A stretch of 64,000 nucleotides of DNA from Krasilnikoviella flava (lineage in GTDB: Bacteria > Actinomycetota > Actinomycetes > Actinomycetales > Cellulomonadaceae). Every line of letters starts with the position of its first letter. Position 1 is the stretch's first letter. Under the pieces are notes generated by a model. The model was not told the DNA's origin and searched no databases. It saw only the letters and a program-made list of their open reading frames with translations. The DNA lies in NCBI RefSeq assembly GCF_900167525.1, contig NZ_FUZQ01000003.1:558001-622000 (forward strand). Reading direction: 5' to 3'. A program made the translations under genes and the position numbers. Positions 42,850 to 60,679 of this stretch are shown piece by piece.

Positions 42850-44280
42850 TCAGGCTCCGGCTGGCAGCCGGGCCGTCGTCCACGCCTCGATGCCGGCGGC
42901 GTCGATGGGCAGGGCGTCGGACAGCACCTCGTGGCCGTCGGCGGTGACGAGCAGGTCGTCCTCCAGCCGCACGCCGATGCCGCGCAGCTCGGGCGGCACG
43001 GTGAGGTCGTGGGCGTGGAAGTACAGGCCCGGCTCGACGGTCATGACGACGCCCGGCTCGAGGTCGGCGCCCATGTAGTCCTGCCAGTCGCTGTCCGCGC
43101 AGTCGTGCACGTCGAGGCCGAGGTGGTGACCGATGCCGCACACGAGCCACCGGCGGTGGTGCTGCCCCTGCGGCGACAGCGCCTCGTCGACGGACACCGG
43201 CAGCAGGCCCCAGTCGTGCAGGCCCTGGGCCAGCACCTCCATGGCCGCGAAGTGGAAGTCGAGGTAGTTCACGCCGGGCCGCACGCGCGCCATGCCGGCG
43301 CGGTGGCTCTTCTCGACCAGGTCGTGCACGGCCCGCTGCTCGGCGCTGAACCGGCCCGACGGCGGTACGGTGCGCGTGACGTCGGCGGTGTAGAGGGTGT
43401 CGGTCTCGACGCCCATGTCGAGCAGCAGGGCCGCGTCGGGAAGCACGGGGCCGTCGCAGCGCACCCAGTGCAGGGTCGGGGCGTGCGGCCCGCTGCCCAC
43501 GATGCTCGCATAGCCGGGGCCGTTGCCCGTGGTGCGGGCGTGCCGGTCGAACGTGCCCTGCAGCCAGCGCTCGCCGCCCGCGCGGACGGCGGCCGGGATC
43601 TCGCGGGCCACGGCCTCGAAGCCCGTGACGGTGTGGTCGACGGCGGCACGCAGCTGCGCCACCTCCCAGGCGTCCTTGACCATGCGCAGGTCGGAGCACG
43701 CGCGGGCGAGCTCCGCGGACGGCTCCAGGCCGTGCCGCGTCACGACGTCCGCCGGCAGCGCGCGCCCGGCCCACCAGCCGGAGCCGGCGGCCAGGGCGCC
43801 CTCGAGGTCCGCGAGCGGGCGCACCGGCACGCCGAGCGCCCGCTCCCACTCGCCGAGCCCGGGGGAGGCCCCCACCCACAGCTCGCCGTGCATCGCGTCG
43901 GCGAAGAACCCCGGCTCCCCGGGGCGGGCGGGCGGCGGCAGGTAGAGCACCGCGTCGGCGCCGTGCAGCACGAGGACGGCGTCCTCCACCTGGCAGCCCG
44001 TGAGCCACACGAAGTCGCTGTCGGCGCGGAAGTCGTAGGACGTGTCGTTGCTGCGCACGGGCGCGCGGCCCGCGCCGACGACGACCGTCCGGCCGCCGAG
44101 CCGCTCCGCCAGCCGGGCGCGGTGGGCCGCGGCGGCCTCGGCCGTGCCGTCGGGCACCCGGACCTCGACGACGTCGGTGCCCCAGCCCTCGGCGATCATC
44201 GCGCCGAACGCGGGGACCTCCGTGAGGCGCGGCGGGCGCGTGCCCGCGTGGGGTGGGCGGTGGGTGTGCTGGTGCGTCAT
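42850..44280 (-). CDS. pepP: Xaa-Pro aminopeptidase (M24B)
   Basis: 476-residue cytoplasmic metallopeptidase with an N-terminal creatinase-like domain and a C-terminal pita-bread fold. Metal ligands are visible: the two aspartates in LLDMGVETDTLYTADVTRT, the histidine in GIGHHLGLDVHD, and the glutamates in VEPGLY and GVRLEDD. It removes the N-terminal residue before proline. GGGAGGAGAACGACG precedes the ATG at 44280, which overlaps the stop of the proline iminopeptidase gene by four bases. As last gene of the peptide transporter operon it would digest imported Pro-rich peptides. Confidence 0.93.
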   Translation of the reverse strand: MTHQHTHRPPHAGTRPPRLTEVPAFGAMIAEGWGTDVVEVRVPDGTAEAAAAHRARLAERLGGRTVVVGAGRAPVRSNDTSYDFRADSDFVWLTGCQVEDAVLVLHGADAVLYLPPPARPGEPGFFADAMHGELWVGASPGLGEWERALGVPVRPLADLEGALAAGSGWWAGRALPADVVTRHGLEPSAELARACSDLRMVKDAWEVAQLRAAVDHTVTGFEAVAREIPAAVRAGGERWLQGTFDRHARTTGNGPGYASIVGSGPHAPTLHWVRCDGPVLPDAALLLDMGVETDTLYTADVTRTVPPSGRFSAEQRAVHDLVEKSHRAGMARVRPGVNYLDFHFAAMEVLAQGLHDWGLLPVSVDEALSPQGQHHRRWLVCGIGHHLGLDVHDCADSDWQDYMGADLEPGVVMTVEPGLYFHAHDLTVPPELRGIGVRLEDDLLVTADGHEVLSDALPIDAAGIEAWTTARLPAGA

Positions 44281-45584
44281 CGTCGTTCTCCTCCCGCGTC
44301 CCGGACGAGCTCCCGCAGGCGCCGCAGCACCCGGGGGTCGCTGAGTCCGTCGTGCTCGTACTCGTTGGTCACCCAGGCGTGCGAGCTCCCCAGCCTGGAC
44401 AGGGTGTCGAGCTGCAGGCCCGAGTCCACGTACATGTCGTCGAAGTACACGGCCGCGGCCAGCGGCACGTCGTTCGCGGCCAGGCGCTCGACGTCGTACA
44501 GCCGGCTCCACTCCGTCCGGGCGGCGAGCTCGTGCACCGCCGGGGCGAACGGCTCCAGCAGCCGCACCTCGTCGAACATCCACGGGAACGCCATCTCGCC
44601 GGTGAGCAGCAGGGGCCGCTCGTCGGGACCGAACTGCGGCCGCTCGTCGCGGGCCCGCTGCGCGGCCCATGCCGTCGGGCCGTTGGCGCCGTCGCCGTAG
44701 ATGGACTCCTGCAGGGTCCAGAACAGCGGGTTCGACGCCGACGACGTGCGTACCTGCACCTGCTCGAGGAACGCGTGCGACAGCCGTCCCGGGCGCACGA
44801 ACGCCTCGTCGACCAGCCAGTGCAGGCGCTCCGACCCGGGCTTCATCCCCAGGTCGATCCCCAGGGACTGGAAGCGGCGGGTGGAGAGGGCGTCGCCGTC
44901 GGGCAGGCGCACGTCGCCCTCGGCCAGCCGGTCGGCGATCGCCGCCACCGCGTCGACGTCCTGCGGGTAGAGGTCGTAGTAGCGCCGTGTCTTGGCCTCG
45001 GCCCGGGCGAACGTGCGCCGGTAGACCTCGTCCGCGCTCGCCGGGGTGCCCGGGATGCCGCCCGTGACGTAGCAGGCGGCCAGCCCCTCCGGCGCGGTCG
45101 ACAGGTAGGCGAGCGTGATCCAGCCGCCGAACGACTGGCCCAGGCTCGCCCACCGACGCCCGTCGTAGTGGGTGCGGCGCACGTGCTCCAGGTCGGCCAC
45201 GATCGAGTCCGCCCGGAAGCACGCCAGGTAGTCCGCGCCGGCGGCGCCGTCCCCGCGCGCCGCGACCTCCTCGCCGTCGAGCGGGGTGCTGCGGCCGGTG
45301 CCCCGCTGGTCCGGCAGGATCACGCGGTACGTCTTCAGGGCCTCGTCGAGCCAGCCGTCGCGCTTCAGGGGGCGGGGCGACGCGCCCCCGGGACCCCCTT
45401 GCAGGTACACGAGCAGGGGCAGGTCGTCGTCGCGGCGGTCGGGGTCGACGACCTCCCGCCAGAACACGGAGATCTGCTCCCCGGAGCCTCCGGGGCCGGT
45501 CGACGGGTCGGGCCGCGACCAGTCGAGCGGCACGGTGGTCGTGCGCTCGGTGACGTGCAGCCCCGGCAGGTGATAGGTGGTCAC
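44277..45584 (-). CDS. Proline iminopeptidase-like alpha/beta hydrolase (S33)
   Basis: 435-residue serine hydrolase of the S33 family. The oxyanion HG is replaced by QGGPGG (near residue 60), typical of prolyl iminopeptidases, DQRGTGRS follows, and GQSFGG gives the nucleophile S151. Such enzymes remove N-terminal proline (some also hydroxyproline) from peptides. Length is at the upper end for the family. GTG at 45584 (GTGA overlap with the ABC ATPase gene, GGAGGAGACGAC upstream) shows coupling. Together with the Xaa-Pro aminopeptidase it handles Pro-rich peptides. Confidence 0.88.
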   Translation of the reverse strand: MTTYHLPGLHVTERTTTVPLDWSRPDPSTGPGGSGEQISVFWREVVDPDRRDDDLPLLVYLQGGPGGASPRPLKRDGWLDEALKTYRVILPDQRGTGRSTPLDGEEVAARGDGAAGADYLACFRADSIVADLEHVRRTHYDGRRWASLGQSFGGWITLAYLSTAPEGLAACYVTGGIPGTPASADEVYRRTFARAEAKTRRYYDLYPQDVDAVAAIADRLAEGDVRLPDGDALSTRRFQSLGIDLGMKPGSERLHWLVDEAFVRPGRLSHAFLEQVQVRTSSASNPLFWTLQESIYGDGANGPTAWAAQRARDERPQFGPDERPLLLTGEMAFPWMFDEVRLLEPFAPAVHELAARTEWSRLYDVERLAANDVPLAAAVYFDDMYVDSGLQLDTLSRLGSSHAWVTNEYEHDGLSDPRVLRRLRELVRDAGGERR

Positions 45585-46558
45585 GTCGTCTCCTCCTCGG
45601 TCTGCTTCGCGGTCTCCTCCGCGTGGCCGCTCGCGGCCCGTGCCGCGGCCGCCTCGCGGCGCGCCCGCTCCCACTCGGGGCGGATGCGCGGCACGGCCGA
45701 CAGCAGCGTGCGCGTGTACTCGTGCTGCGGGTCGTCGAACACGGCGTCCCGCTCGCCCTGCTCGACGATGCGCCCCTTCGACATCACGGCGACGCGGTCG
45801 GCGATCTGACGCACCACGGCGAGGTCGTGCGCGATGAAGAGGTAGCTGAACCCCTCCTCGCGCTGCAGCCGGCGCAGCAGGTTGATGATCTGCGCCTGCA
45901 CGGACACGTCGAGGGCGGAGACCGCCTCGTCGCAGACCACCAGCCGCGGCGACACGGCGAGCGCCCGGGCGATGCCGATGCGCTGCGCCTGCCCGCCGGA
46001 GAACTGCGACGGGTAGCGACGGTGGTGGTCGGGGTCCAGGCCCACGCGCTCCATGAGCTGCTGCGTGAACGCCCGCGTGCCGCCCGGCACCTGCCGCCCC
46101 TGATAGAGCAGGGGAGCGGTGACGATCCGCTCCACCGTGTGCCGCGGGTTGAGCGATGAGTACGGGTCCTGGAACACGACCTGCACGTCGCTGCGGAACC
46201 GCCGCAGCCGCTCGCCCTTCGCGTGCGTCACCGGCTCGCCGTCGAAGACGATCTCGCCGGACGTCGCGTCCATGAGGCGCGCGACGATCCGCGCGGTCGT
46301 GGACTTGCCGGACCCCGACTCGCCGACGAGCGCCAGCGTCTCGCGGGCGCGCACCTCGAGGCTCACGCCGTCGACGGCGCGGAACGTGTCGGCGCGGCCC
46401 AGCAGCCCGCCGGTGCCGGGCACCGCGAACTCCTTGACGAGGTCGGTGGCGCGCAGCAGCGGATCGGCGCCGCGCGACGTCGAGGCCGCGGGGGCGCTCG
46501 CGGCGGCGGGGGCGACGGCCTCGGCCTCGGTGCTGTGCCCGGTGCTCGTGGTGCTCAT
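45581..46558 (-). CDS. Oligopeptide ABC transporter ATPase, OppF/DppF type
   Basis: 325-residue ABC ATPase of the peptide/nickel family. Walker [11 protein letters not shown]-loop [11 protein letters not shown], signature SGGQAQR and Walker [13 protein letters not shown] are present, followed by the C-terminal oligopeptide-type domain ([16 protein letters not shown]). The N-terminus carries an alanine-rich, low-complexity stretch of about 30 residues. ATG at 46558 overlaps the previous ATPase stop by four bases. Second of the two ATPase subunits. Confidence 0.93.
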
Positions 46559-47400
46559 GCCTTCCCTCCCACGACGTCGATGCTGTCGATGGCGCGCAGC
46601 TCGCCGATCTCGTCGTCGATCCTGGGGACGGCGTCGAGCAGCGCCCGGGTGTACGGGTGCCGCGGGTCGGAGAACAGCCGCTCCGCGGGTGCCTGCTCCA
46701 CCGCGAGGCCGTGCCGCATGACGACCACGTCCTCGGCGATCTCGGAGACCACGGCGAGGTCGTGCGAGATGAGGACCAGCGCCGTCCCGGTCTCGCGCCG
46801 CACCTCCTGCAGCAGGTCGAGGATCTGGGCCTGCACGGTCACGTCGAGGGCCGTGGTGGGCTCGTCGGCGATGAGCAGGTCCGGCTCGGTGGACAGCGCC
46901 ATCGCGATCATCACGCGCTGCCGCATCCCGCCGGAGAACTGGTGCGGGTAGTGGTCCACCCGCCGCGCGGCGTCGGCGATGTGCACGCGCTCCATCGCCT
47001 CGACCGCGACCTTCCGGGCCTGGCGGCGGGTGACGCCCGCACGGTGGGCCCGGTAGGCCTCCTCGATCTGCATCCCCACGGAGTAGTACGGGTTCAGGGA
47101 GGACAGCGGGTCCTGGAAGATCATCGCCATGCGGTCGCCGCGCAGGCGCCGCACCTTCGACTCGGGCAGCGCGGTGAGCTCGGCACCGTCCAGCGACACC
47201 CGGCCGCGCAGGCTCGCGGTGGGTGGCAGCAGCCCCATGACGGCCAGCGACGTCATCGACTTGCCGGAGCCCGACTCGCCGACGATCCCGAGCGACGCGC
47301 CCCGTTCGAGGGTGAACGAGAGCCCGTCCACGACGTCGACGGGCCCGTGCGCCGTGCGGAAGGTGACGGTGAGGTCCTCGACCTCGAGCAGCGCGCTCAT
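46555..47400 (-). CDS. Oligopeptide ABC transporter ATPase, OppD/DppD type
   Basis: 281-residue ABC ATPase: Walker [11 protein letters not shown]-loop [15 protein letters not shown], signature FSGGMRQR, Walker [13 protein letters not shown], and the terminal [18 protein letters not shown] motif of peptide transporters. It is somewhat shorter at the C-terminus than typical DppD. ATG at 47400 overlaps the permease stop by four bases. First of the two ATPase subunits of this transporter. Confidence 0.94.
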
Positions 47401-48395
47401 GCCCTCGCTCCGATCCGTACGCGGGGGTCGATCGTCGTGTAGACGATGTCCACGATCACGTTCCCGACGATCACGAGGAACGCCGCGACGAGGGTGACGC
47501 CCATGATGACCGGCTGGTCGTTCTTGGTGATGGAGTCGGACGCCATCTTGCCGACGCCGTTGAGGCCGAAGACGGTCTCGATGATGATCGCGCCGCCCAG
47601 CAGGCCTGCGAAGTCCATGCCGAACAGCGTCACGACCGGCGTGAGCGCGGGTCGTAGCGCGTGCCGCCGCCACACCAGCCGTGGCGCGAGCCCCTTGGCG
47701 CGCGCCGTGCGGACGAAGTTCTCGTCGAGGGTGTCCAGCACGTTCGCCCGGGTGAGGCGCTGGTACATCGACGCGTAGGTGAACGCGAGCACCAGCCACG
47801 GCATGACGAAGTTGAGGAACCACTGCCCGGGATCGGCGCCGAAGGGCACCGCCTGCGGGAAGGGGAGCCAGCCGAGCTTCACGACCAGCACGTACTGCAG
47901 CACCAGGGCGAGCACGTAGTTGGGGATCGACACGCCGCCGAGCGCCGCGCCGGTGGCGGCCCGGTCGAACCAGGTGCCCTTCTTGATCGCCGCGAGCATG
48001 CCGCCCGCCACGCCCATGAACAGCCACAGCACGGCCGCGCCCACCGCGAGGGTGGCCGAGACGCCGAAGCGCTGCTCGAACATCTCGAGCACGGGCTGCC
48101 CGGTCTGGAACGAGTAGCCGAGGCACGGCGCCGCGCAGTCGATCGCGTTGGCGCCGGTGCCGTACGTGGTGCCGACGAACAGCCCGGACAGGAAGCCGAG
48201 GAACTGCTCGTAGAACGGCCGGTCCAGGCCCAGGTTGGTGCGGATCTGGTCGATCAGCTCCGGGGTGCAGTTCTTGCCGCAGATCTGCACCGCGGGGTCG
48301 GGGGAGAGCGCGAAGAAGATCGCGTACGTGAACAGGACGACGAGGAACAGCACGCCCACCATGCCGGCGAGCCTCGTCACGAGGAAGCGGACCAT
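47397..48395 (-). CDS. Oligopeptide ABC transporter permease, OppB/DppB type
   Basis: 332-residue integral membrane permease. The N-terminal helix RLAGMVGVLFLVVLFTYAIFF, the external loop with cysteines (ICGKNCTPELIDQIRTNLGLDRPFYEQ) and EAA motif ENFVRTARAKGLAPRLVWRRHALRPALTPV are characteristic of DppB. About six membrane segments. ATG at 48395 overlaps the stop of the other permease gene by one base (TGATG). Confidence 0.94.
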   Translation of the reverse strand: MVRFLVTRLAGMVGVLFLVVLFTYAIFFALSPDPAVQICGKNCTPELIDQIRTNLGLDRPFYEQFLGFLSGLFVGTTYGTGANAIDCAAPCLGYSFQTGQPVLEMFEQRFGVSATLAVGAAVLWLFMGVAGGMLAAIKKGTWFDRAATGAALGGVSIPNYVLALVLQYVLVVKLGWLPFPQAVPFGADPGQWFLNFVMPWLVLAFTYASMYQRLTRANVLDTLDENFVRTARAKGLAPRLVWRRHALRPALTPVVTLFGMDFAGLLGGAIIIETVFGLNGVGKMASDSITKNDQPVIMGVTLVAAFLVIVGNVIVDIVYTTIDPRVRIGARA

Positions 48396-49351
48396 CAGCG
48401 CCTCTCTCCCGCGTCGACGACGTCCTTGAGGCGGTCGCCGAGGACCGTGAAGGACAGCACGAGCAGGAACAGGAAGGTTCCGGGGAGCAGGAAGTACACC
48501 GGGTCGACGGCGTACCAGCTCATCGACTGCGCGATCATCTGCCCCCAGGAGGGGGTCGGCGGGACCACGCCCACGCCGAGGAAGCTCAGCCCCGCCTCCG
48601 TGCCGATGTACCCGGGCACGGCCAGCGTCGTCATGACGATGATCGTGGAGCGCAGGTTCGGCAGGATCTCCAGGAGCACGATCCGCCAGCCCGACGCCCC
48701 GGAGGCCCGGGCCGCCTCGACGAACTCGCGCTGCGTGAGCGTCATGGTCTGCCCGCGCACGACGCGGGCCAGGTACGGCCAGCCGAACACCGAGATGACC
48801 AGCACCAGCAGCGGGGCGCGGTTGCTCGCGGGCAGCGCCGACAGGATGGCGATCATGAAGATCAGGGCGGGGAACGCCATGAGGAAGTCCATGACGCGCG
48901 ACACGACCTGGTCCACCTTGCCGCCGTGGTACCCCGCGAGGAGCCCGAAGAGGACGCCGAGCAGGGTGGTGAGGGTGGTGGCTGCGATCGCGATGAGCAT
49001 GGACGTGCGCGCGCCGTAGACGATGCGCGCGAACAGGTCGCGGCCCGTGCCGGGCTCGACGCCGAACCAGTGCTCGGCACTGATCCCGCCGAGCGGGCCG
49101 ATGGGCAGGCCGCCGAGGTTCGGGTCGATGGCCGACTGGTCGAACTCGTACGGCCCCCAGCCGGAGAGCTTGACGACGAGCGGTGCGGCGACGGCCAGGA
49201 GGGCGACGAGCGCGATGTACGACAGGGCGAGCACCGCTCCGCGGTTGCGGAGCAGGTGGTGCCAGACGCCCTGCCGGGGCGCCGGGGGCGCGACGCCGAC
49301 GGACGGCGCGCCCCCGGTCTCTGCCTCGAGCGTGGTCATGCTGATGGTCAT
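48395..49351 (-). CDS. Oligopeptide ABC transporter permease, OppC/DppC type
   Basis: 318-residue permease partner of OppB. An N-terminal cytosolic leader, a first helix ALSYIALVALLAVAAPLVV, the DppC-specific HWFGVEPGTGRDLFARIVYGAR loop and EAA motif EFVEAARASGASGWRIVLLEILPN place it in the family. Its start lies three bases after the stop of the binding-protein gene; the nearby ATG five codons in is an alternative. Confidence 0.93.
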   Translation of the reverse strand: MTISMTTLEAETGGAPSVGVAPPAPRQGVWHHLLRNRGAVLALSYIALVALLAVAAPLVVKLSGWGPYEFDQSAIDPNLGGLPIGPLGGISAEHWFGVEPGTGRDLFARIVYGARTSMLIAIAATTLTTLLGVLFGLLAGYHGGKVDQVVSRVMDFLMAFPALIFMIAILSALPASNRAPLLVLVISVFGWPYLARVVRGQTMTLTQREFVEAARASGASGWRIVLLEILPNLRSTIIVMTTLAVPGYIGTEAGLSFLGVGVVPPTPSWGQMIAQSMSWYAVDPVYFLLPGTFLFLLVLSFTVLGDRLKDVVDAGERR

Positions 49352-49354
49352 GGC

Positions 49355-51085
49355 TCAGCCCTTGCTCGGGTCCTTGAGCCCGACGCCGGTGTAGTCGAGG
49401 CCGCCGGTCGCGACGCCGGGGCTGGAGTACACCCCGGTGACGTTCTCGCCGGGCAGCAGCACGACCTTCTCGACCAGCAGCGGCACGATCGGCGCCTCCT
49501 CGAGCACCTGCTCGTCGAGGTTGCCCCACGCCTCGTTGGCGGCCGCCGGGTCGGTGACGGCGAGCGCGTCGTCGATGGCGGAGTTGATCGCCGGGTCGTC
49601 GATCTGGCCGAGGTTCGAGTTGCCCTTGTCGGTGATGCGGCGCCCGTCGAAGAGCGGCGGGATCACGGTGCTCGCCGACGAGGCCCAGTCCGGGCACCAG
49701 CCGGTGATCGCGGCGTCGTTCTGCAGCTTGGGCGTGCCGATCGTCTCGTAGAACTTCGAGGTGTCGATCGGGTTGAAGGTGACCTTGATGCCCACGCGGG
49801 CCAGCGACTGCTGCACGGCCTCGGCCTGCGCCTGCAGCTTCGGCTGGGTGCGCATGTCGAGCGTCATGTCGAAGCCGTCGGCGTAGCCGGCCTCGGCGAG
49901 CAGCTCCTTCGCCTTCTCGACGTCGCCGGTGTTCCCCTCGCTCGGGTAGAGGTCGAACTCCTTGTACCCGGCCACGGACTGCGGGATCGTCGTGCTGGCG
50001 ATGTCGGCGAGCATGGTGCCGCCGGTGCCGTTCTGCACGGCGGCCTTGTCCACCGCGTACGAGATCGCCTGGCGCACCTTGACGTCGTTCAGCGGCTTCT
50101 TCGTGGTGTTGAGGCCCATGTAGGTGGTGCAGACGCCGGGCCAGTCGACCAGCCTGTCCTGGTACTTCGGGTCCTGCAGCCGGGCGAGCGTGGCGGGCTG
50201 CAGGTTGCCCGCGATGGCGTTGACGTCGGCGCCCTGCCCGGCGAGCAGGCGCTCGTCGATGGTGGCGGGGTCGAGGCCGAGCTGGAAGTGCCAGCCGTCC
50301 GGCTTGGCGGTGCGGACCTCGTCGGTGGCCGGGTCCCAGTTCTCGTTGCGGACCAGGTTGATGACGCTGCCGGGGGTGTACTCGTCGAGCGTGTACGGGC
50401 CGGACGCGACGATGTCGTTGAGGAACTCGTCGCCGGCGCCCGAGCCGACGGGGAACGGCGCGAAGTTCGGCTGGGACGCGACGGCGGGGAAGTCGGGGAA
50501 CGGCGCCTTCAGGTGGAAGACGATCGTGGTGTCGTCGGGCGTTTCGATGGTGGGCAGGTCGCCCGAGACGTACGGGCCCTGGTAGTCCTTCGGCGCGTCG
50601 ATGACCTGCTTGGCGTACGGGGAGCCGATGCCGATCTCCGGGTCCCAGGCGCGCGAGACGCCGAACTTGACCTCGGCCGACGTGATCGGGTCGCCGTTGT
50701 CGAACTTCAGCCCGTCCTTGAGCGTGAACGTCCAGGTGAGGCCGTCGTCCGACACGGTGCCCGTGTCCGTCGCGAGGTCCGGCACGATCTCGTTCGGGTC
50801 CTCGGCGCTGCCGGAGGCCGGCGTCGTGAGGGTGCGGTACACGAGCCGGTAGAAGTTGTTGACGCCGCCGTCCCAGCCCTTGGCGGGGTCGAGGTAGGAG
50901 TAGTCGGCGTTCTGCAGCACCTGCACGACGCCGCCCTCGGCGGGCTCGCCCTCGAGCCCCCCGGCGGTGCTCGCCGTCGAGCCGGAGCCGCCGTCGGCGC
51001 CGCCCGAGCACGCGCTGAGCGCGAGGGCGGCCGCGATGCCGAACGCTGCGGCGCGGAGGGCTGGTCTGGTCACTCGTCGGTTCAT
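49355..51085 (-). CDS. Family 5 peptide-binding lipoprotein
   Basis: 576-residue extracytoplasmic solute-binding protein of SBP family 5. The signal peptide ends in a lipobox LSAC (lipidated C26), followed by a glycine/serine linker. The fold shows TTPASGSAEDPNEIVPDLAT and the WTFTLKDGLKFDNGDPITSAEVKFG motif, typical of OppA/DppA. It binds peptides or, in some members, oligosaccharides and glycopeptides; neighbour genes point to Pro/Hyp-rich peptides. ATG at 51085 is 52 bases after the GH127 stop, same strand. Confidence 0.93.
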   Translation of the reverse strand: MNRRVTRPALRAAAFGIAAALALSACSGGADGGSGSTASTAGGLEGEPAEGGVVQVLQNADYSYLDPAKGWDGGVNNFYRLVYRTLTTPASGSAEDPNEIVPDLATDTGTVSDDGLTWTFTLKDGLKFDNGDPITSAEVKFGVSRAWDPEIGIGSPYAKQVIDAPKDYQGPYVSGDLPTIETPDDTTIVFHLKAPFPDFPAVASQPNFAPFPVGSGAGDEFLNDIVASGPYTLDEYTPGSVINLVRNENWDPATDEVRTAKPDGWHFQLGLDPATIDERLLAGQGADVNAIAGNLQPATLARLQDPKYQDRLVDWPGVCTTYMGLNTTKKPLNDVKVRQAISYAVDKAAVQNGTGGTMLADIASTTIPQSVAGYKEFDLYPSEGNTGDVEKAKELLAEAGYADGFDMTLDMRTQPKLQAQAEAVQQSLARVGIKVTFNPIDTSKFYETIGTPKLQNDAAITGWCPDWASSASTVIPPLFDGRRITDKGNSNLGQIDDPAINSAIDDALAVTDPAAANEAWGNLDEQVLEEAPIVPLLVEKVVLLPGENVTGVYSSPGVATGGLDYTGVGLKDPSKG

Positions 51086-53078: not shown

Positions 53079-53091
53079 GGAATCTCCTCGG

Positions 53092-53328: not shown

Positions 53329-53380
53329 TGCACTACTGTGATGTCCACCACCCCTTGGATCAGCTCGTGAGGAAGTGCTC

Positions 53381-54058
53381 ATGTCGGAAGCCGTCGCGTC
53401 CTTTCGCCGCATCGAGGCGCCGGTGAGCCTGCGCGAGAGCGTGTCGCGCGCCCTCACGGCGGCGATCGTCTCGGGCGACCTCGCCCCGGGCACGCTGGTG
53501 TCGGTGCCGTCGCTCACCGCGCGCTTCGCCGTGTCGGCGACGCCGGTGCGCGAGGCGATGCTGGACCTCGAGAAGCGCGGGTTCGTCACCGCGGTCCGCA
53601 ACAAGGGCTTCCGGGTCACCGAGGTGTCCCCGGAGATGCTGAGCCACATCGCCGAGGTGCGGCAGCTGCTCGAGCCGCCCGCGATGGAGAAGCTGGCCGG
53701 CCGCTTCCCGCAGGGCGCGCTGCCGGCGCTCCGGGAGCAGGCAGACGCCATCGTCACGGGTGCGCGCTCGGGCGACCTGGTGACGTACCTCGAGGCGGAC
53801 CGCGACTTCCATCTGAGGCTCACGACGCTGGCGGGCAACCCCCTGCTGGTGGACGTGGTGGCCGACCTGCGCAGCCGCGCACGGCTGCTCGGCCTGTCGC
53901 AGATGGTCGCCACCGATCGTCTGGAGCACTCGGCGGCGGAGCACCACGAGCTGCTCGACCTCCTCGCCGCCGGCGACGCCGCCGGCGCGCGGGACCTCAT
54001 GCACCGCCACATCGGCCACACCACCGGCTGGTGGGCCGGGCGGGCCGAGGAGGGCTGA
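53381..54058 (+). CDS. GntR/FCD-family regulator of hydroxyproline locus
   Basis: 225-residue regulator: winged HTH (LTARFAVSATPVREAMLDLEKRG) at residues about 10-75 and an all-helical FCD domain with metal-binding histidines likely in FHLRLT, EHHELL and MHRHI. It lies between the GH127/transporter operon and the hydroxyproline catabolic genes, so it probably controls both; hydroxyproline or a breakdown product would be the natural effector (inference). ATG at 53381 after AGGAAG is preferred to the GTG at 53375. Confidence 0.88.
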   Translation: MSEAVASFRRIEAPVSLRESVSRALTAAIVSGDLAPGTLVSVPSLTARFAVSATPVREAMLDLEKRGFVTAVRNKGFRVTEVSPEMLSHIAEVRQLLEPPAMEKLAGRFPQGALPALREQADAIVTGARSGDLVTYLEADRDFHLRLTTLAGNPLLVDVVADLRSRARLLGLSQMVATDRLEHSAAEHHELLDLLAAGDAAGARDLMHRHIGHTTGWWAGRAEEG

Positions 54059-54104: not shown

Positions 54105-54115
54105 GTGACATATTA
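54105..54115 (+). promoter_or_regulatory. Candidate GntR/FCD operator before oxidoreductase gene
   Basis: GTGACATATTA, inside the palindrome TATGTGACATA (54102-54112), 15 bases before the ATG at 54130. Confidence 0.4.
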
Positions 54116-54129
54116 TCGAAGGGAGCCGC

Positions 54130-55380
54130 ATGACCGTCGACGTCGTGGTCGTGGGAGCGGGCATCGTGGGTGCCGCGTGCGCCCGTGCGCTGGCCCGGCG
54201 CGGGCTCGCGGTGACCGTGCTCGACCGCCGGGGAGCCGCCTCGGGCACCACCGCCCACGGTGAGGGCAACCTCCTCGTCTCCGACAAGGAACCGGGCCCC
54301 GAGCTCGTGCTCGCGCAGCACGCGGCGCGGCGCTGGCCCTCCCTCGTCGCGGAGCTCGAGGACGAGCTGGGCAGCGACCGCCACGGGTTCCCGCCTCTCG
54401 AGTACGACCCCAAGGGCGGCCTCGTCGCCGCGACCACGGCCGCGGGCGCGCAGCCGCTGCGGGACTTCGCGGCCCGGCAGCGGGGCGCCGGGGTGGACGC
54501 GCGGGAGATCGACGTCGCGCACGCTCTCGAGCTCGAGCCCGCGCTCAACCCCGCGCTCACGGCCGCCGTCTGGTACCCGGAGGACGCGCAGGTGCAGCCG
54601 GTCGCCGCGGCCGAGGCGCTGCTCGCGTCCGCCCGGCGCGCCGGCGCCACGGTGCGCCCGGGCGTGGAGGTCGTGGGCGCCCTGCGCGACGGCGAGCGGC
54701 TCGTCGGGGTGCGGACCTCCGACGGCGACATCCCGGCGGCGGCCGTCGTGCTCGCCGCAGGGCCGTGGTCCGGCGTCGTCGCCGCGCGGCTCGGCGTGGG
54801 CCTGCCCGTGCGACCGCGGCGGGGGATGGTGCTGGTGACCACGCGGATGCCGCACGTCGTGCGGCACAAGGTGTACGACGGCGACTACGTGGGCGCCACC
54901 CAGTCCGGCGACGCGGCGCTGCAGACCTCGAGCGTGGTCGAGTCGACCGCCGCCGGCACGGTCCTCATCGGCTCCAGCCGCGAGCAGGTGGGCTTCGACG
55001 ACCGGCTGCGCGTCGCCGTGCTGCGGGAGATGGCCGCCCGCGCGGTCCGCCTGTTCCCGTTCCTCGCCGACGCGAGCGTCATGCGCACCTACCTGGGCTT
55101 CCGCCCCTACGTGCCCGACCACCTGCCGATCGTCGGCCCCGACCCGCGGACCCCCGGGCTGTGGGTCGCGACCGGCCACGAGGGCGCGGGCATCGGGCTG
55201 GGGCCCGTCAGCGGCGAGCTGCTCGCCGACCTGTTCACCGGCGCGGAGCCCGCGACCGATCCCGCGCCGTTCCGCGTCGACCGGCCGGCGGTGCTCGACG
55301 CCGCGCTCGACGAGCCGCACCCGTCCGAGTCCACGCCGTCCGAGAACACGCCGTCCGAGAACACCGGGGAGGCCTCATGA
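54130..55380 (+). CDS. Hydroxyproline dehydrogenase, DAO-type FAD subunit
   Basis: 416-residue flavoprotein of the D-amino-acid oxidase fold (HcnC/LhpB-like): VVVVGAGIVGAACARALARRG binds FAD at the N-terminus, and GLWVATGHEGAGIGLGPVSGELLADL is the C-terminal FAD motif. With the ferredoxin-like and NAD(P)-type FAD subunits encoded next it forms a membrane-linked D-hydroxyproline dehydrogenase that converts cis-4-hydroxy-D-proline to pyrroline-4-hydroxy-2-carboxylate. The tail has a Ser/Glu-rich repeat. Start ATG at 54130 follows GAAGGGAGCC; its stop overlaps the next start by four bases (ATGA). Confidence 0.88.
   Translation: MTVDVVVVGAGIVGAACARALARRGLAVTVLDRRGAASGTTAHGEGNLLVSDKEPGPELVLAQHAARRWPSLVAELEDELGSDRHGFPPLEYDPKGGLVAATTAAGAQPLRDFAARQRGAGVDAREIDVAHALELEPALNPALTAAVWYPEDAQVQPVAAAEALLASARRAGATVRPGVEVVGALRDGERLVGVRTSDGDIPAAAVVLAAGPWSGVVAARLGVGLPVRPRRGMVLVTTRMPHVVRHKVYDGDYVGATQSGDAALQTSSVVESTAAGTVLIGSSREQVGFDDRLRVAVLREMAARAVRLFPFLADASVMRTYLGFRPYVPDHLPIVGPDPRTPGLWVATGHEGAGIGLGPVSGELLADLFTGAEPATDPAPFRVDRPAVLDAALDEPHPSESTPSENTPSENTGEAS
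55321..55365 (+). repeat. 15-bp tandem repeat at 3' end of DAO-type subunit gene
   Basis: Three consecutive 15-base units beginning CCGTCCGAG at 55321, 55336 and 55351, encoding a repeated PSEST/PSENT tail. Likely a variable minisatellite without effect on the fold. Confidence 0.8.
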
Positions 55381-55676
55381 GCGCGACGTCGCAGGGCGCC
55401 GGACCGCGCCCGCTGACGATCACCCTGGACGGTCGGCCGTTCGCCGGCACCGAGGGTCAGACGATCGCGGGGATGCTGCTGGCCGCGCGGCGCCGGTCGT
55501 GGCGCACCACCAGCGTGGAGTCCGCGCCGCGGGGCGTGTTCTGCGGGATCGGGGTGTGCTTCGACTGCCTCGTCACCGTCAACGGCTCCCGGGACGTGCG
55601 GGCCTGCCTGCGGCGCGCGGCCGACGGGGACGTCGTCGAGACGCAGCACGACCCGCTGCCGGGGGTGACCTCGTGA
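55377..55676 (+). CDS. Hydroxyproline dehydrogenase, small 2Fe-2S subunit
   Basis: 99-residue ferredoxin-like subunit (Fer2_4, HcnA/LhpE-like). Cysteines C-x4-C-x2-C in FCGIGVCFDC, followed by a fourth in DVRACLRR, bind a 2Fe-2S cluster. Between the two flavin subunits in the operon, it passes electrons in the three-part dehydrogenase. Start overlaps the previous stop, and its stop overlaps the next start (GTGA), so the three subunits are translated together. Confidence 0.9.
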   Translation: MSATSQGAGPRPLTITLDGRPFAGTEGQTIAGMLLAARRRSWRTTSVESAPRGVFCGIGVCFDCLVTVNGSRDVRACLRRAADGDVVETQHDPLPGVTS

Positions 55677-57121
55677 GCCGCCGCACGGTGGTCGTGGTCG
55701 GAGCCGGGCCTGCCGGGCTGTCCGCGGCGCGCGCCGCGGCCCGCGCCGGCGCCGACGTGACCCTGCTCGACGCGTCGGACCAGGTGGGCGGGCAGTTCTG
55801 GCGGCACCGGGCGCTCCCGGGCGGCGGCACCGCGCCCGACGAGCCCACGTTCCATCACGGCTGGGGCACGTTCACGGCCCTGCGTGACGTCGTGGCCACG
55901 CACCCCCGCGTCACGCTGCTGACGTCGGCCCAGGTGTGGGCGCTCGAGCGGCTCGACGCCGGCGTGCGGCTGCGCGTGCTGGTCGGGCCGGCGGACGGCG
56001 CCGGCCGCGAGCACCTCACGCTGACCCCCGACGCGCTCGTGCTCGCCACGGGGGCGCACGACCGCACCCTGCCGTTCCCCGGCTGGCAGCTGCCCGGCGT
56101 CACCACGGCCGGCGCGGCCCAGGCCCTCGCCAAGGCCGAGCGCGTCGCCGTGGGGGACCGTGTCGTCGTCGCGGGGGCGGGCCCCTTCCTGCTGCCCGTC
56201 GCCTCGTCGCTGCTGCGCACCGGCGCGCGCGTGCTGTCGGTGCACGAGGCGGCGACGCCGGCGTCGATGGCCCGCGGCTGGGGCGCCCGGCCGGCCGGGC
56301 TGCTGGGCGCCGCGCACAAGGCGGGAGAGCTCGGCGGGTACGTCGGGACGCTCGCCCGCCACCGGGTGGCCTACCGTCTCGGCGAGGCGGTCGTCGCCGC
56401 CCGCGGGGACGGCCGGGTCGAGGAGGTGACGGTCGCCCGCGTGGACGCGCGGTGGTCGCCCGTGCCCGGCACCGAACGGACCGTCGCGGCCGACGCCGTG
56501 TGCGTCTCGCACGGCTTCACGCCGCGCCTCGAGCTCGCGGTCGCCGCCGCGTGCGCGATCTCGCCGGACCGCTTCGTCGTCGTGGACGACGAGCAGCGCA
56601 CCAGCGCGGCCGGCGTGTGGGCCGCGGGCGAGCTCACCGGCATCGGCGGGGCGGAGGCCGCGCTGGCCGAGGGCTGGGTGGCCGGGCACCACGCGGCGTC
56701 CGGGGCGCCCGACGATGCCGGCCTCGCCCGCGCGGCGCGGCGCCGCGCGCGGTCCGCCGACTTCGCGCGCCGGCTCGATGCCGCCCACGGCATCCGCGGC
56801 GGATGGACCTCCTGGCTGCGCGACGACACCCTCGTCTGCCGCTGCGAGGAGGTCGACGCCGGCACGCTGCGCGCCGCGGCGTGCGCCACCGGCTCGGCCG
56901 ACCTGCGCTCCGTGCGCCTCACCAGCCGCGCCGGGCTCGGCCCCTGCCAGGCGAGGATCTGCGGCCGCACGGTCGCGGAGCTCGTCGGGGCCACCGAGCC
57001 CGCGCCCGGTGGGGACACGGGTTCGGCGCCCGCCGTGCCCGACCGGCGGCCGCTCGTCGTGCCCGTCCGTCTCGGCGACCTCGCCACCCTGCCCGACGTG
57101 CCGGCGGCCGACGCCCCCTGA
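55673..57121 (+). CDS. Hydroxyproline dehydrogenase, FAD/NAD-type subunit
   Basis: 482-residue flavoprotein (HcnB/LhpF-like). FAD motif VVVVGAGPAGLSAARAAARAG at the N-terminus, ATG-type motif LVLATGAHDRTLPFPGW, a second dinucleotide motif VVVAGAGPFLLP, and a C-terminal BFD-like 2Fe-2S motif with cysteines in CRCEEVD and GLGPCQARICG. It completes the hydroxyproline dehydrogenase. GTG at 55673 overlaps the previous stop. Confidence 0.88.
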   Translation: MSRRTVVVVGAGPAGLSAARAAARAGADVTLLDASDQVGGQFWRHRALPGGGTAPDEPTFHHGWGTFTALRDVVATHPRVTLLTSAQVWALERLDAGVRLRVLVGPADGAGREHLTLTPDALVLATGAHDRTLPFPGWQLPGVTTAGAAQALAKAERVAVGDRVVVAGAGPFLLPVASSLLRTGARVLSVHEAATPASMARGWGARPAGLLGAAHKAGELGGYVGTLARHRVAYRLGEAVVAARGDGRVEEVTVARVDARWSPVPGTERTVAADAVCVSHGFTPRLELAVAAACAISPDRFVVVDDEQRTSAAGVWAAGELTGIGGAEAALAEGWVAGHHAASGAPDDAGLARAARRRARSADFARRLDAAHGIRGGWTSWLRDDTLVCRCEEVDAGTLRAAACATGSADLRSVRLTSRAGLGPCQARICGRTVAELVGATEPAPGGDTGSAPAVPDRRPLVVPVRLGDLATLPDVPAADAP

Positions 57122-57211: not shown

Positions 57212-58129
57212 ATGAGCTCCCAGAAGATCGACCTGGGCGGCGTCGTCGTCGCGACGACGCTGCCGTTCACGCCCGACCCCGCGGCGCCCGCCGGGCTCGC
57301 CGTCGACTACGCCGGCTACGCCGCCCACGTGGACCACCTGATGAACGCCGGCTGCCGCGGCGTCGGGCCCAACGGCTCCCTGGGCGAGTACTCGTCCCTG
57401 ACGGACGAGGAGCGCCGCAAGGTCGTGCAGACCGCCGTCGAGACCGTCGCGGGCCGCGGCATCGTCATCGCCGGCGTGCACGGCGTGGGCTGGCACCAGG
57501 CCAAGCACTGGGCCGAGCTCGCGGCGGAGGACGGCGCCGACGCCGTCCTGCTGCTGCCGCCCACCATCTACCGCGCCAACCGCCGCGAGATCGTCGAGCA
57601 CTACAGCCGCGTCAACGAGGTGGGCCTGCCGATCATGGTCTACAACAACCCGTTCGACACGAAGGTCGACCTGACGCCCGACGTCGTCGCCGAGCTCGCG
57701 CAGCTCGAGAACGTCGTGGCCATCAAGGAGTTCTCCGGCGACGTGCGCCGGATCTCCGAGCTGCGCGAGGTGGCGGACATCGACGTCATCGCGGGAGCCG
57801 ACGACCTGCTCTTCGAGTCGCTGGTCATGGGCGCGACCGGCTGGTTCGCCGGGTACCCGAACGCCATCCCCGAGGTGGCCGTCGAGCTCTACGAGCTGGT
57901 GCGGGCCGGCAAGATCACCGAGGCGCGGGACCTGTACGAGAACGTGGTGGCCATGTTCCGCTGGGACTCGCGCACCGAGTTCGTGCAGGCCATCAAGCTG
58001 TCCACGCAGATCGCGGGGCGCCCGTTCGCCGTCGAGACCCGCCCGCCGCGCGGCCCGTTGTCCGCCGAGCAGGAGGCCACCGTGCGGCGGGACACCGAGA
58101 AGGCCCTCGCGTACATCGCCAACCGCTGA
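57212..58129 (+). CDS. Pyrroline-4-hydroxy-2-carboxylate deaminase (DapA family)
   Basis: 305-residue class I aldolase-type lyase of the DHDPS/NAL family. The Schiff-base lysine is K172 in VAIKEFSGD and the catalytic tyrosine is in MVYNNPFD. In hydroxyproline loci the DapA-family member (HypD/LhpC) deaminates and opens pyrroline-4-hydroxy-2-carboxylate to alpha-ketoglutarate semialdehyde and ammonia. This role rests on its place between the dehydrogenase and epimerase genes. The ATG at 57212 has GAGAGGAC upstream. A 90-base gap with a GACCCTCATCCC direct repeat precedes it. Confidence 0.9.
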   Translation: MSSQKIDLGGVVVATTLPFTPDPAAPAGLAVDYAGYAAHVDHLMNAGCRGVGPNGSLGEYSSLTDEERRKVVQTAVETVAGRGIVIAGVHGVGWHQAKHWAELAAEDGADAVLLLPPTIYRANRREIVEHYSRVNEVGLPIMVYNNPFDTKVDLTPDVVAELAQLENVVAIKEFSGDVRRISELREVADIDVIAGADDLLFESLVMGATGWFAGYPNAIPEVAVELYELVRAGKITEARDLYENVVAMFRWDSRTEFVQAIKLSTQIAGRPFAVETRPPRGPLSAEQEATVRRDTEKALAYIANR

Positions 58130-58167: not shown

Positions 58168-59169
58168 ATGCGCTCGTCCCGGACGTTCACCGCCGTCGAC
58201 TCGCACACCGAGGGCATGCCCACCCGCGTCGTCACGTCCGGGCTGGGGGTCATCCCCGGCGCGACGATGAACGACAAGCGGCTGCACTTCATCGAGCACC
58301 TCGACGACGTGCGGAAGCTGCTCGTGAACGAGCCGCGCGGGCACGCCGCGATGAGCGGCGCCATCCTGCAGCCCTCGACCCGCGACGACTGCGACTGGGG
58401 CGTCGTGTACATCGAGGTCTCCGGCTGCCTGCCGATGTGCGGGCACGGCACCATCGGCGTCGCGACGGTGCTCGTCGAGACGGGCATGGTGACGGTGACC
58501 GAGCCGACGACCACCATCCGGCTGGACACCCCGGCCGGGGTGGTCGTCGCCCGGGTGGAGGTGCGCGACGGGCACGCCGAGTCGGTGACGATCGAGAACG
58601 TGCCGAGCTTCGTCGTGCGGCTCGACGACGAGGTGGACGTGCCCGGGCTCGGCACCGTGCCCTACTCGCTGGCGTTCGGCGGCAACTTCTACGCGATGGT
58701 CGACCTCGACGCCGTGCAGCTGCCGTTCGACCGCGCCCGGCAGCAGGACATCCTGACCGCGGGGCTCGCGATCATGGACGCGATCAACGCCACCGCGCCG
58801 CCGTCGCACCCCACGATCGCGGGCGTGGACCACTGCCACCACGTCGAGTTCATCGCGCCGGGTTCGACGGCGGAGCACTCCCGGCACGCGATGGCGATCC
58901 ACCCGGGGTGGTTCGACCGGTCGCCCTGCGGCACCGGCACGTCCGCGCGCATGGCGGAGCTCTGGCAGCGGGGCGAGCTGGCCCTGGGTGCCGACTTCGT
59001 CAACGAGTCCTTCATCGGCTCGCGGTTCGTGGGGCGGCTCGTCGGGGAGACCGAGGTCGCGGGGATCCCGGCCGTCCTGCCCACCGTCACCGGCCGCGCC
59101 TGGGTCACCGGGCTCGGCACCTACCTGCTCGACCCGAGCGACCCGTTCCCGACCGGCTTCCAGTTCTGA
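58168..59169 (+). CDS. 4-Hydroxyproline 2-epimerase (proline racemase family)
   Basis: 333-residue cofactor-independent racemase/epimerase. The two catalytic cysteines are C91 in MCGHGTIG and C254 in SPCGTGTSA, as in true 4-hydroxyproline epimerases rather than dehydratases. It would turn trans-4-hydroxy-L-proline into cis-4-hydroxy-D-proline, the substrate for the dehydrogenase. The ATG at 58168 follows AGGAGACCACC; in-frame upstream sequence is not needed. Confidence 0.93.
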   Translation: MRSSRTFTAVDSHTEGMPTRVVTSGLGVIPGATMNDKRLHFIEHLDDVRKLLVNEPRGHAAMSGAILQPSTRDDCDWGVVYIEVSGCLPMCGHGTIGVATVLVETGMVTVTEPTTTIRLDTPAGVVVARVEVRDGHAESVTIENVPSFVVRLDDEVDVPGLGTVPYSLAFGGNFYAMVDLDAVQLPFDRARQQDILTAGLAIMDAINATAPPSHPTIAGVDHCHHVEFIAPGSTAEHSRHAMAIHPGWFDRSPCGTGTSARMAELWQRGELALGADFVNESFIGSRFVGRLVGETEVAGIPAVLPTVTGRAWVTGLGTYLLDPSDPFPTGFQF

Positions 59170-59179
59170 GGTGCACACG

Positions 59180-60679
59180 ATGACGACCCCGACAGACTCC
59201 CCGACGACGACCGCCCCCGCGCAGCCGGAGGACGCGGCCCGCGCCGCTGCCGCGGCCGCACCCGTGCTCGCGGACCTCTCGCCGTCGACGCGGGCCGACG
59301 CGCTGCGTGCCGTCGCCGACTCGCTCGGTGCGCACGATGACGAGCTGGTCGGCCTCGCCGCCGGCGAGACCAGGCTGGCCGAGGCGCGGCTGCGCGGCGA
59401 GCTGAAGCGCACGCGGGTGCAGCTGCGGCTGTTCGCCCGCGTCGTGGAGTCCGGCGCGTACCTCGACGTGCGCCTGGACGCCGCCGACCCGGACTTCGTG
59501 CTCGGCCCGCGTCCCGACCTGCGCCGCACGCTGTGGCCGGTCGGCCCGGTGCTGGTCTTCGCGGCGAGCAACTTCCCGTTCGCGTTCTCCGTCCCGGGCG
59601 GCGACACGGCTGCTGCGCTCGCCGCCGGGTGCCCCGTGATCGTCAAGGCGCACCCCGGGCACCCGGCGCTGTCGCGGCGCGTCGCCGACCTCATGGTCGA
59701 GGCCCTCGCCGGCGCCGGCCTGCCCGCCGGCACGTTCGCCCTGGTCGAGGGCGACGACGCCGGCCGCGCGCTGCTGGCGCACCCCGCCGTCCGGGCGGCG
59801 GCGTTCACCGGCTCGACGCGCGTGGGCAGGCTGCTCGCCGACGCCGCTGCCGCCCGGCCGGATCCGATCCCGTTCTTCGGCGAGCTCGGGTCCCTCAACC
59901 CCGTGCTCGTGACCCCCGACGCGTTCGCCGAGCGGGGTGCGGAGATCGCCCGTGCCTGGGTGGGGTCGGTGAGCGGCTCGGCTGGGCAGCTCTGCACCAA
60001 GCCGGGCTTCCTGCTGGTGCCCGAGGGGCACGGCCTCGGGCCCGTCGTGGCCGACGCCGCCGCCGCCGTGCCCGAGCACGCGCTGCTCAACGCGCGCGTC
60101 GGCGTGGGCTACGTCGCGGGCCGGTCCGTCGTCCTCGGCACCCCCGGCGTCGCCGTGCTCGCCGCGGGTTCCGCAGAGACGGAGGATGACGGCGTCGTCC
60201 ACGCGACGCCGACGCTCGTCGAGACGGACCTCGCCACGCTCCGCGCCCACCGCGACACCGTCCTGGAGGAGGTGTTCGGCCCGTTCGCCGTGCTCGTCAC
60301 CTACCCGGAGGACACCGACCTCGGTGCCGTCGTCGCCGAGCTCTTCCCGGGCGAGCTCACCGCCACCGTGCACCGCGGGGCGGGCGAGGGGGCGCAGCTC
60401 GCGGGCCTGCTCGCCACGCTGGGGCGGCACGCCGGGCGGGTGCTCGTCGACGGCTGGCCCACCGGCGTCGCCGTCACCCCGGCGATGCAGCACGGCGGCC
60501 CGTGGCCGGCCACGACCAGTGACGCGACGTCGGTCGGCACCGCGGCGATCGGCCGGTTCCTGCGCGGCACCACGTACCAGGACGCCCCGCAGGACGCGTT
60601 GCCGGCGCCGTTGCAGGACGGTAACCCGTGGGGGGTGCCGCAGGCGCGGTCGGGTGTGGGAGAGTCTGCGCACTGGTAG
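59180..60679 (+). CDS. Alpha-ketoglutarate semialdehyde dehydrogenase
   Basis: 499-residue aldehyde dehydrogenase. Catalytic C272 in GQLCTKPG and general-base E235 in FFGELGSLNP are present; FAASNFPFAFSVPGGDTA is the cofactor-binding segment of the NADP-dependent KGSADH group. It finishes the pathway by oxidising alpha-ketoglutarate semialdehyde to 2-oxoglutarate. ATG at 59180 lies 10 bases after the epimerase stop, with GAGG just upstream; GTG at 59171 is an alternative. Last gene of the hydroxyproline operon. Confidence 0.92.
   Translation: MTTPTDSPTTTAPAQPEDAARAAAAAAPVLADLSPSTRADALRAVADSLGAHDDELVGLAAGETRLAEARLRGELKRTRVQLRLFARVVESGAYLDVRLDAADPDFVLGPRPDLRRTLWPVGPVLVFAASNFPFAFSVPGGDTAAALAAGCPVIVKAHPGHPALSRRVADLMVEALAGAGLPAGTFALVEGDDAGRALLAHPAVRAAAFTGSTRVGRLLADAAAARPDPIPFFGELGSLNPVLVTPDAFAERGAEIARAWVGSVSGSAGQLCTKPGFLLVPEGHGLGPVVADAAAAVPEHALLNARVGVGYVAGRSVVLGTPGVAVLAAGSAETEDDGVVHATPTLVETDLATLRAHRDTVLEEVFGPFAVLVTYPEDTDLGAVVAELFPGELTATVHRGAGEGAQLAGLLATLGRHAGRVLVDGWPTGVAVTPAMQHGGPWPATTSDATSVGTAAIGRFLRGTTYQDAPQDALPAPLQDGNPWGVPQARSGVGESAHW

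Follow-up and report, generated by a model that had tools for sequence, protein, structure and literature searches.

A candidate HypR-controlled locus for the use of arabinosylated hydroxyproline peptides in Krasilnikoviella flava and other actinobacteria

Bacterial systems that act on hydroxyproline (Hyp), or on the arabinose attached to it in plant hydroxyproline-rich glycoproteins (HRGPs), have been described in several lineages. In Streptomyces coelicolor the Hyp operon is induced by L-Hyp, its epimerase is required for growth on Hyp, and the operon (SCO6289-6293) is repressed, together with a collagenase gene, by the GntR/FCD protein HypR (PMC6608401). As cited in that paper, Sinorhizobium meliloti follows the same chemical route under a GntR-type repressor, HypR, but with the dehydrogenase HypO, and GH127 is not mentioned in that account. 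In Bifidobacterium longum, where HypBA1, HypBA2 and HypAA serve the use of HRGP arabinose, GH121 releases beta-arabinobiose (beta-Ara2) outside the cell and a sugar-type ATP-binding cassette (ABC) importer delivers it to an intracellular GH127 enzyme (PMC7263609, PMC6085000). Xanthomonas euvesicatoria removes Hyp-linked arabinose with XeHypAA, XeHypBA2 and XeHypBA1, next to a putative prolyl oligopeptidase gene that is frameshifted; the word 'transporter' does not occur, nor is Hyp catabolism mentioned, in the available text of that study (PMC6085000). Finally, action of GH127 on extensin, an ABC sugar transporter and oligopeptide transport were proposed in silico for single-cell genomes of another phylum, 'Latescibacteria', and the passages on them mention neither a linked locus nor a regulator or a pathway for Hyp (PMC4454575). 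Here, we describe a GH127-transporter-peptidase operon that diverges from a Hyp operon in a 64,000-nucleotide stretch of the Krasilnikoviella flava genome (contig NZ_FUZQ01000003.1, positions 558,001 to 622,000; hereafter the window).

The locus shares with the S. coelicolor HypR regulon (SCO6289-SCO6294) a GntR/FCD regulator, a three-subunit D-Hyp dehydrogenase, a DapA-family deaminase, an epimerase, the operator half-site ATGTCAC and a secreted protein with the HExxH motif of proteases; in S. coelicolor, however, the protease belongs to the M9 collagenases, the gene for the semialdehyde dehydrogenase lies outside the operon, the regulon table contains no GH127, peptide importer or prolyl peptidases, and neither 'arabino' nor 'extensin' occurs in the main text (PMC6608401). 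The likeness to B. longum lies in a putatively intracellular GH127 that has the catalytic and zinc-binding residues of its counterpart there, an ABC importer and a connection with HRGP arabinose (PMC7263609, PMC6085000), whereas the window has a peptide-type importer, peptidases, Hyp catabolism and a GH127 of another clade. GH127 itself, the Hyp pathway under HypR and in-silico HRGP use by GH127 ('Latescibacteria', PMC4454575) are already known; what is new is a GH127 clade tied by operon and operator to the putative import of peptides, to prolyl peptidases and to the breakdown of Hyp. An initial annotation from the DNA alone (the sequence-only reading) was aware of no described locus with this layout. 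This stands for the union with peptide import and GH127, of which we found no description, but the Hyp half with its GntR regulator was known from S. coelicolor. Likewise, no description of a single bacterial system using both the sugar and the amino acid of HRGPs was found in the open-licence literature. The genomic and operator evidence presented below supports the sequence-only reading, and we conclude that the locus is probably a HypR-regulated system for scavenging arabinosylated Hyp peptides.

Gene content of the divergent operons

Every gene that the sequence-only reading had named in the two operons was recovered by Pfam or NCBIfam matches. The leftward operon, with a further gene that may belong to it, contains:

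51138 to 53078, minus strand: GH127 beta-L-arabinofuranosidase-like enzyme (PF07944, E 3e-88; PF20736; PF20737)
49355 to 51085, minus strand: family-5 solute-binding lipoprotein (SBP) of Opp/Dpp type (PF00496, SBP_bac_5, E 4.8e-78)
48395 to 49351, minus strand: OppC-type permease (PF00528, PF12911; best NCBIfam match Opp4C, under cut-off)
47397 to 48395, minus strand: OppB-type permease (PF00528, PF19300; start inferred within a longer open reading frame, ORF)
46555 to 47400, minus strand: OppD-type ATPase (PF00005, PF08352; start inferred)
45581 to 46558, minus strand: OppF-type ATPase (PF00005, PF08352)
44277 to 45584, minus strand: S33-type alpha/beta hydrolase, putative prolyl aminopeptidase (PF00561, E 4e-14; start approximate)
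42850 to 44270, minus strand: Xaa-Pro aminopeptidase, AMP_N plus M24 (PF00557, E 2.8e-39; PF05195; start approximate)
40755 to 42773, minus strand: secreted HExxH metalloprotease-like protein with a ricin-type lectin domain (HEFGHAV motif; PF14200, E 1.7e-8; PF07737 weak, sub-threshold)

The rightward operon contains:

53381 to 54058, plus strand: GntR/FCD regulator, HypR homologue (PF07729, PF00392; start inferred)
54130 to 55380, plus strand: D-Hyp dehydrogenase beta-type subunit, DAO (PF01266, E 6e-70)
55377 to 55676, plus strand: D-Hyp dehydrogenase gamma-type subunit, 2Fe-2S, Fer2_4 (PF13510, E 7e-24; start inferred)
55673 to 57121, plus strand: D-Hyp dehydrogenase alpha-type subunit, Pyr_redox_2 (PF07992, PF04324; start inferred)
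57212 to 58129, plus strand: DapA-family protein, putative pyrroline-4-hydroxy-2-carboxylate deaminase (PF00701, E 6e-51)
58168 to 59169, plus strand: 4-hydroxyproline epimerase, Pro_racemase (PF05544, E 1e-123; NF010578, 342 bits, cut-off 376)
59180 to 60679, plus strand: aldehyde dehydrogenase, putative alpha-ketoglutaric semialdehyde dehydrogenase (PF00171, E 1.8e-40; start inferred)

All four steps of the D-Hyp pathway (epimerase, dehydrogenase, deaminase and semialdehyde dehydrogenase) are encoded in the window, and a GntR/FCD regulator adjoins them, as in the S. coelicolor-type HypR regulon. This regulator is 53% identical to the GntR proteins encoded next to Hyp operons in two Streptomyces (L203, L204). 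The epimerase has two cysteines, presumably those with a role in the enzyme, in the motifs MCGHG and SPCGTG. Since the NCBIfam scores fall under the equivalog cut-offs, the precise substrates of the Hyp-pathway enzymes are putative; the scores of the transporter genes, with their oligopeptide-type ATPases, are likewise below these cut-offs. The closest chain to the S33-type hydrolase in the PDB is AT3g61540 (E 3e-92), and the genome contains araA.

As the start of the GH127 gene we chose a GTG at 53078, preceded by what appears by eye to be a ribosome-binding site, and with this start E321, E337, C339, C417 and C418 fall where the sequence-only reading had placed them; in the longer ORF of this frame (51138-53102) they become residues 329, 345, 347, 425 and 426. 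The ORF at 51082-53130 was ruled out as GH127, being in the wrong frame and without a family match. The catalytic, middle and C-terminal domains (PF07944, PF20736, PF20737) are all present. Inspection by eye agreed with the sequence-only reading that no signal peptide is evident, which suggests a cytoplasmic enzyme.

A gap of 76 bp separates the M24 peptidase gene from that of the secreted HExxH/lectin protein, and the leftward unit may run on to 40755, with this gene as its likely end. The gene is likewise adjacent in the two nearest relatives (L033, L034) and lies beside GH127 in L077; in Microbacterium MPKO10 a relative is transcribed away from GH127 and has two overlapping one-mismatch operators ahead of it. 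Among 221 genomes of the family, relatives at E 1e-60 or better occur in three, the three Isoptericola-type genomes that have the locus. Its only marks of a protease are the HExxH motif and a sub-threshold similarity to ATLF, which we take to be the fold of Pro-Pro endopeptidases; an AlphaFold2 model built from four rows had a predicted local distance difference test score (pLDDT) of 39, too low for use, and a profile search of the PDB returned one weak, unrelated match. Farther left, a 1393-residue protein (36207-40388) has NAGPA phosphodiester glycosidase and calcineurin-like phosphoesterase domains.

Conservation of the operon and its GH127 clade

An initial set of 57 GH127 loci was reduced to 51 by removing six from outside the actinobacteria (L082-L086, L088; 33-36% identical), and six more (L127-L129, L140, L142, L143) gave the 57 loci, window not included, that were used for arrangement and promoter counts. 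Co-occurrence with the epimerase was scored in 50 genomes, corresponding to the 51 loci minus L033 (G143), which the family survey covers. Because the loci are related by descent and the samples overlap (the same genomes appear as G144/G221/L034, G143/L033, G222/G479/L035 and G268/G401/L081), the counts are not independent.

The operon with the clade GH127 was found in eight actinobacterial families. Its order, GH127-SBP-permease-permease-ATPase-ATPase, is kept in 53 of the 54 loci with enough downstream DNA, the exception being L143, which had no separate ATPase-D match after the overlap filter. An S33 gene is present in 47 of these 54 loci, an M24 gene in 38, and one or both in 53. The sequence-only reading would have been refuted if relatives had never kept GH127 and the Hyp genes together, which was not the case: a close epimerase (67-97% identical) occurs in 49 of the 50 genomes with clade GH127, and in 14 the two genes are no more than 15 kb apart. 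One genome, G224, was not scored as linked, as its nearby epimerase match is a 90-residue piece. This piece (L037, ~21.2 kb; G224:C1:7731916-7732188) comprises the last 90 residues of the epimerase beside the GH127 operon, a full copy lying elsewhere, and is a possible remnant.

The surveys agree with this association. In the family survey, 150 of 221 genomes gave a GH127 match with an E value of 1e-40 or lower; among the matches listed, GH127 is at least 60% identical in six and at most 50% in the others, and the epimerase occurs in 16 genomes, including all six. The epimerase lies ~5 kb from GH127 in five of the six; in the sixth (G143) they are on different contigs, and the GH127 contig (L033) stops inside the Hyp operon. 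In a class sample of 394 genomes, all six with a GH127 of at least 59% identity have the epimerase, against a base rate of 100/394, and neither of two genomes whose GH127 is 50-51% identical has it. Where the epimerase is this common, co-occurrence alone is weak evidence, so we rely on linkage and operators.

The linked arrangements vary. The Hyp genes are divergent and include GntR in Isoptericola, Intrasporangiaceae and a genus here called g19; divergent without GntR in Streptomyces KL109B and NBC_01016; collinear downstream in G483 and G558 (from the same taxonomic order), Microbacterium MPKO10 and some Nonomuraea and Streptomyces; and elsewhere in the genome in Kribbella and most Nonomuraea, with a GntR homologue following the GH127 operon in all 12 Kribbella loci. 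That the partners stay together while their order changes points to a shared function, and chance clustering was ruled out by the conserved operon order and recurring Hyp linkage. In nine Nonomuraea Hyp loci (L191-L193, L195-L199, L209) a second proline-racemase-family gene, 35-36% identical, directly follows the epimerase gene and perhaps encodes a trans-3-hydroxyproline dehydratase.

In a phylogenetic tree, 24 clade members, a hand-picked subset, form one group apart from the other actinobacterial GH127 rows (SH-aLRT, a Shimodaira-Hasegawa-like approximate likelihood ratio test, 100); three long end branches leave deep placement in this tree unsure. L034 and L059 were excluded for a stop in the extracted frame; the Isoptericola sp. 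4D.3 gene (L034:10001-11959) has one in-frame TGA, reflecting either decay of the gene or an error in sequencing. The window's GH127 is 90-91% identical to copies in two genomes that match Isoptericola strains, of the same genus as the window's genome, which itself has a second GH127 (G000:C9:212471-214309, L001) that is 49% identical and falls outside the clade.

We take E322, E338, C340, C417, C418 and H270 of HypBA1, in the chain numbering of the solved structure, to be the Zn(Cys3-Glu) ligands and acid/base set. Together with the site residues H142, Y145, H194 and R273 (PMC10850190), they are invariant in 24/24 clade members and in 29/29 other GH127 rows. The catalytic residues were consequently rejected as proof of Hyp specificity. 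Residues specific to the clade and close in sequence to the site (S327, R334, D394 and R399 of the 654-residue ORF) might define the aglycone site, and we infer that the enzyme acts on Hyp-linked beta-L-arabinofuranose (beta-L-Araf).

HypR-type operators

Two forms of a candidate operator recur at these promoters. The first is the palindrome GTRAYATRTYAC. As it was read off Micrococcales GH127 promoters by eye, its matches at GH127 promoters are circular; the Hyp operons of genomes G364 and G222, a set of 20 Hyp loci and the published HypR motif provide less circular tests. Among the sites listed, perfect matches number 15 in six of eight genomes searched (G144, one; G364, four; G483, three; G558, two; G264, three; G222, two), and 14 of them lie at GH127 or Hyp operons, the other preceding an AGCS symporter gene in Microbacterium MPKO10. 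The GH127 and Hyp operons of G364 are ~1.16 Mb apart, with two perfect sites each, and those of G222, on different contigs, have one each (L190:5963); no other perfect site was listed for either genome. At one mismatch, the eight genomes have 4 to 23 sites each, against 0 to 12 for the reversed pattern. Across the 20 Hyp loci, most of them unlinked to GH127, 15 have a site with at most one mismatch at the Hyp promoter, including all 11 from Streptosporangiaceae, 10 of which are perfect. The perfect palindrome ahead of the AGCS-type amino-acid symporter gene (operator at L077:7108, gene at L077:5553-7070, minus strand) is next to the lectin-protease gene, and free Hyp/Pro uptake within the same regulon is possible. 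Away from the Hyp locus, genome G226 contains two perfect GTGACATGTCAC sites (G226:C10:626821 and 626877) with a spacing of 56 bp, which may be the target of another regulator or mark an extra regulon member.

The second form, GTGCAATGNCAC, occurs at the GH127 promoters of Kribbella, most Nonomuraea and some Streptomyces and Arthrobacter, and was recognised by reading these promoters before comparison with the published HypR site. The HypR footprint in S. coelicolor is TACAATGTCAC, with the consensus CTNTGC(A/C)ATGTCAC (Kotowska et al. 2019, PMC6608401), and TGC(A/C)ATGTCAC was measured there by footprint and electrophoretic mobility shift assay (PMC6608401). Judged by its letters, the GTGCAATGNCAC form is the HypR site, and the two forms have the half-site GTGACAT/ATGTCAC in common. 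The core TGC(A/C)ATGTCAC stands upstream of 15 of the 57 GH127 operons exactly and of 36 with at most one mismatch; the palindrome adds 11, giving 47 of 57 promoters with a HypR-type operator. Permuted motifs matched a mean of 0.33 (palindrome) or 0.37 (HypR core) of the 57 promoters, with maxima of 4 and 3, and other 360-bp windows from the same loci gave 19/3219 and 59/3219. In the divergent loci L033, L034, L127 and L128 the counted operator is nearer the GntR side. In Nonomuraea, Kribbella and Streptomyces, no convincing exact k-mer was found in common between the promoters of GH127 and those of the Hyp genes.

The window itself has the diverged palindrome form:

53091 to 53102: HypR-type operator variant, GH127 side, one mismatch to GTRAYATRTYAC
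53318 to 53329: HypR-type operator variant, GntR side, one mismatch to GTRAYATRTYAC
54105 to 54116: HypR-type operator variant preceding the dehydrogenase genes, one mismatch to GTRAYATRTYAC

The site at 53318 to 53329 overlaps, by eye, a possible -10 element of the GntR promoter; the promoter-like match there is on the minus strand. Taken with the perfect sites at unlinked operons, the operators at GH127 promoters make it very probable that the GH127-transporter operon is part of the hydroxyproline (HypR) regulon. Control by one regulator, a guess from layout in the sequence-only reading, is thereby backed by operators that agree with the HypR site as measured (PMC6608401).

Proposed pathway and alternatives

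In the scheme we favour, secreted proteases, perhaps including the 40755-42773 protein, would cut short Hyp/Pro peptides from plant HRGPs, and the family-5 SBP and Opp-type ABC transporter would import them, some still bearing beta-L-arabinofuranosyl groups. Cytoplasmic GH127 would take off the arabinose, which would enter the genome's AraA pathway, and the S33 and M24 peptidases would release Hyp and Pro. Hyp would be converted to 2-oxoglutarate via the epimerase, the three-subunit D-Hyp dehydrogenase, the deaminase and the aldehyde dehydrogenase, while the GntR/FCD protein would repress both divergent operons until a Hyp metabolite is present. A GH146 enzyme has been cited for Hyp-linked arabinose on the HRGP backbone (PMC10850190), so that here either the peptidases or GH127 could act first. 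A broader version, in which the lectin-metalloprotease cuts, the Opp system imports and both arabinose and Hyp of the whole glycopeptide are used under HypR in all eight families, with GH127 as an accessory lost in some lineages, is one we put forward tentatively.

Several observations weigh against the proposed scheme. All three solved GH127 enzymes in the tree (HypBA1 and two others) fall outside the clade, and site residues common to every aligned GH127 row point to a complete GH127 site but do not specify the aglycone. Among the ORFs scanned in 32106-63987 there was neither a GH121 nor a GH43, the remaining genome not having been searched for either. In 36 of the 50 genomes with clade GH127 there is no close epimerase within 15 kb; it is on the same contig but more than 200 kb off in five and on a different contig in 30, and G235 has just a 40% relative. 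The three operator variants of the window are imperfect, and three matches at two mismatches or fewer are not above chance (shuffle mean 3.56), so that their positions alone are informative; the window's genome (G000) has no perfect GTRAYATRTYAC site, and its six one-mismatch sites include three within the locus. Genome G226 has two perfect sites off the locus and just one-mismatch sites within it, 5 of the 20 Hyp loci (all four from Kribbella and one from Streptomyces) lack a GTRAYATRTYAC site, and neither operator form is present at one mismatch or fewer in 10 of the 57 GH127 promoters. Finally, of ten g19 genomes that have the epimerase without clade GH127, six carry the transporter genes beside the Hyp operon, three have no transporter genes within the 20 kb retrieved, and one is truncated where its contig stops.

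The g19 loci bear directly on the role of GH127. A transporter kept in its absence is independent of it and may carry plain Hyp peptides, which weakens the view of a transporter specific for arabinosylated forms. Five of these loci (L133, L134, L136, L137, L138) comprise transporter, GntR and Hyp operon with the operator kept, and five g19 SBPs from GH127-less loci nest among GH127-bearing ones in an SBP tree whose inner branches have modest support, a pattern that reads as GH127 loss in that genus. The core would thus be Hyp-peptide uptake and catabolism, to which GH127 adds access to arabinosylated peptides.

Some family-5 SBPs bind oligosaccharides, and the transporter might instead import beta-arabino-oligosaccharides, with GH127 trimming free sugar and the Hyp genes using free Hyp imported otherwise. 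Sugar import of this kind has a precedent in B. longum, where HypBA1 cleaves beta-Ara2 after its uptake into the cell (PMC7263609). We nevertheless consider this reading improbable: the importer is of Opp/Dpp type with oligopeptide-type ATPases (scores below equivalog cut-offs), at least one peptidase gene lies downstream in 53 of 54 loci, and the transporter remains beside the Hyp genes in the six g19 genomes without GH127. The bifidobacterial layout of extracellular GH121 and GH43 with a sugar-type ABC importer was not found among the ORFs scanned in 32106-63987.

Slightly less probable still is a general locus for Hyp/Pro peptides, such as those of collagen, in which GH127 acts on another beta-arabinofuranoside unrelated to Hyp. 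The locus versions without GH127 and the collagenase gene of the S. coelicolor HypR regulon (PMC6608401) would suit it, but GH127 is the operon's first gene, adjoins the operator and forms a separate clade. Moreover, collagen is not known to carry arabinose.

Peptide hormones are of a size that Opp systems can transport, and the locus occurs in Phytoactinopolyspora endophytica, a plant associate by name, as if the real substrates were plant arabinosylated signals (CLE or PSY type) and not structural HRGPs, with the same biochemistry but a different biology. Although such hormones are said to bear beta-L-Araf linkages (PMC7263609), this is very unlikely, as they are probably present in very small quantities for a pathway of nutrition and the sequence offers nothing to separate signals from HRGPs.

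HRGPs are abundant, resistant plant wall proteins. With its genes named, a separate GH127 clade recognised and its operator tied to a measured regulator, the proposed pathway for their arabinosylated peptides becomes testable in culturable soil actinomycetes such as Kribbella and Isoptericola, and the locus would be a source of enzymes to remove Hyp-linked arabinose.

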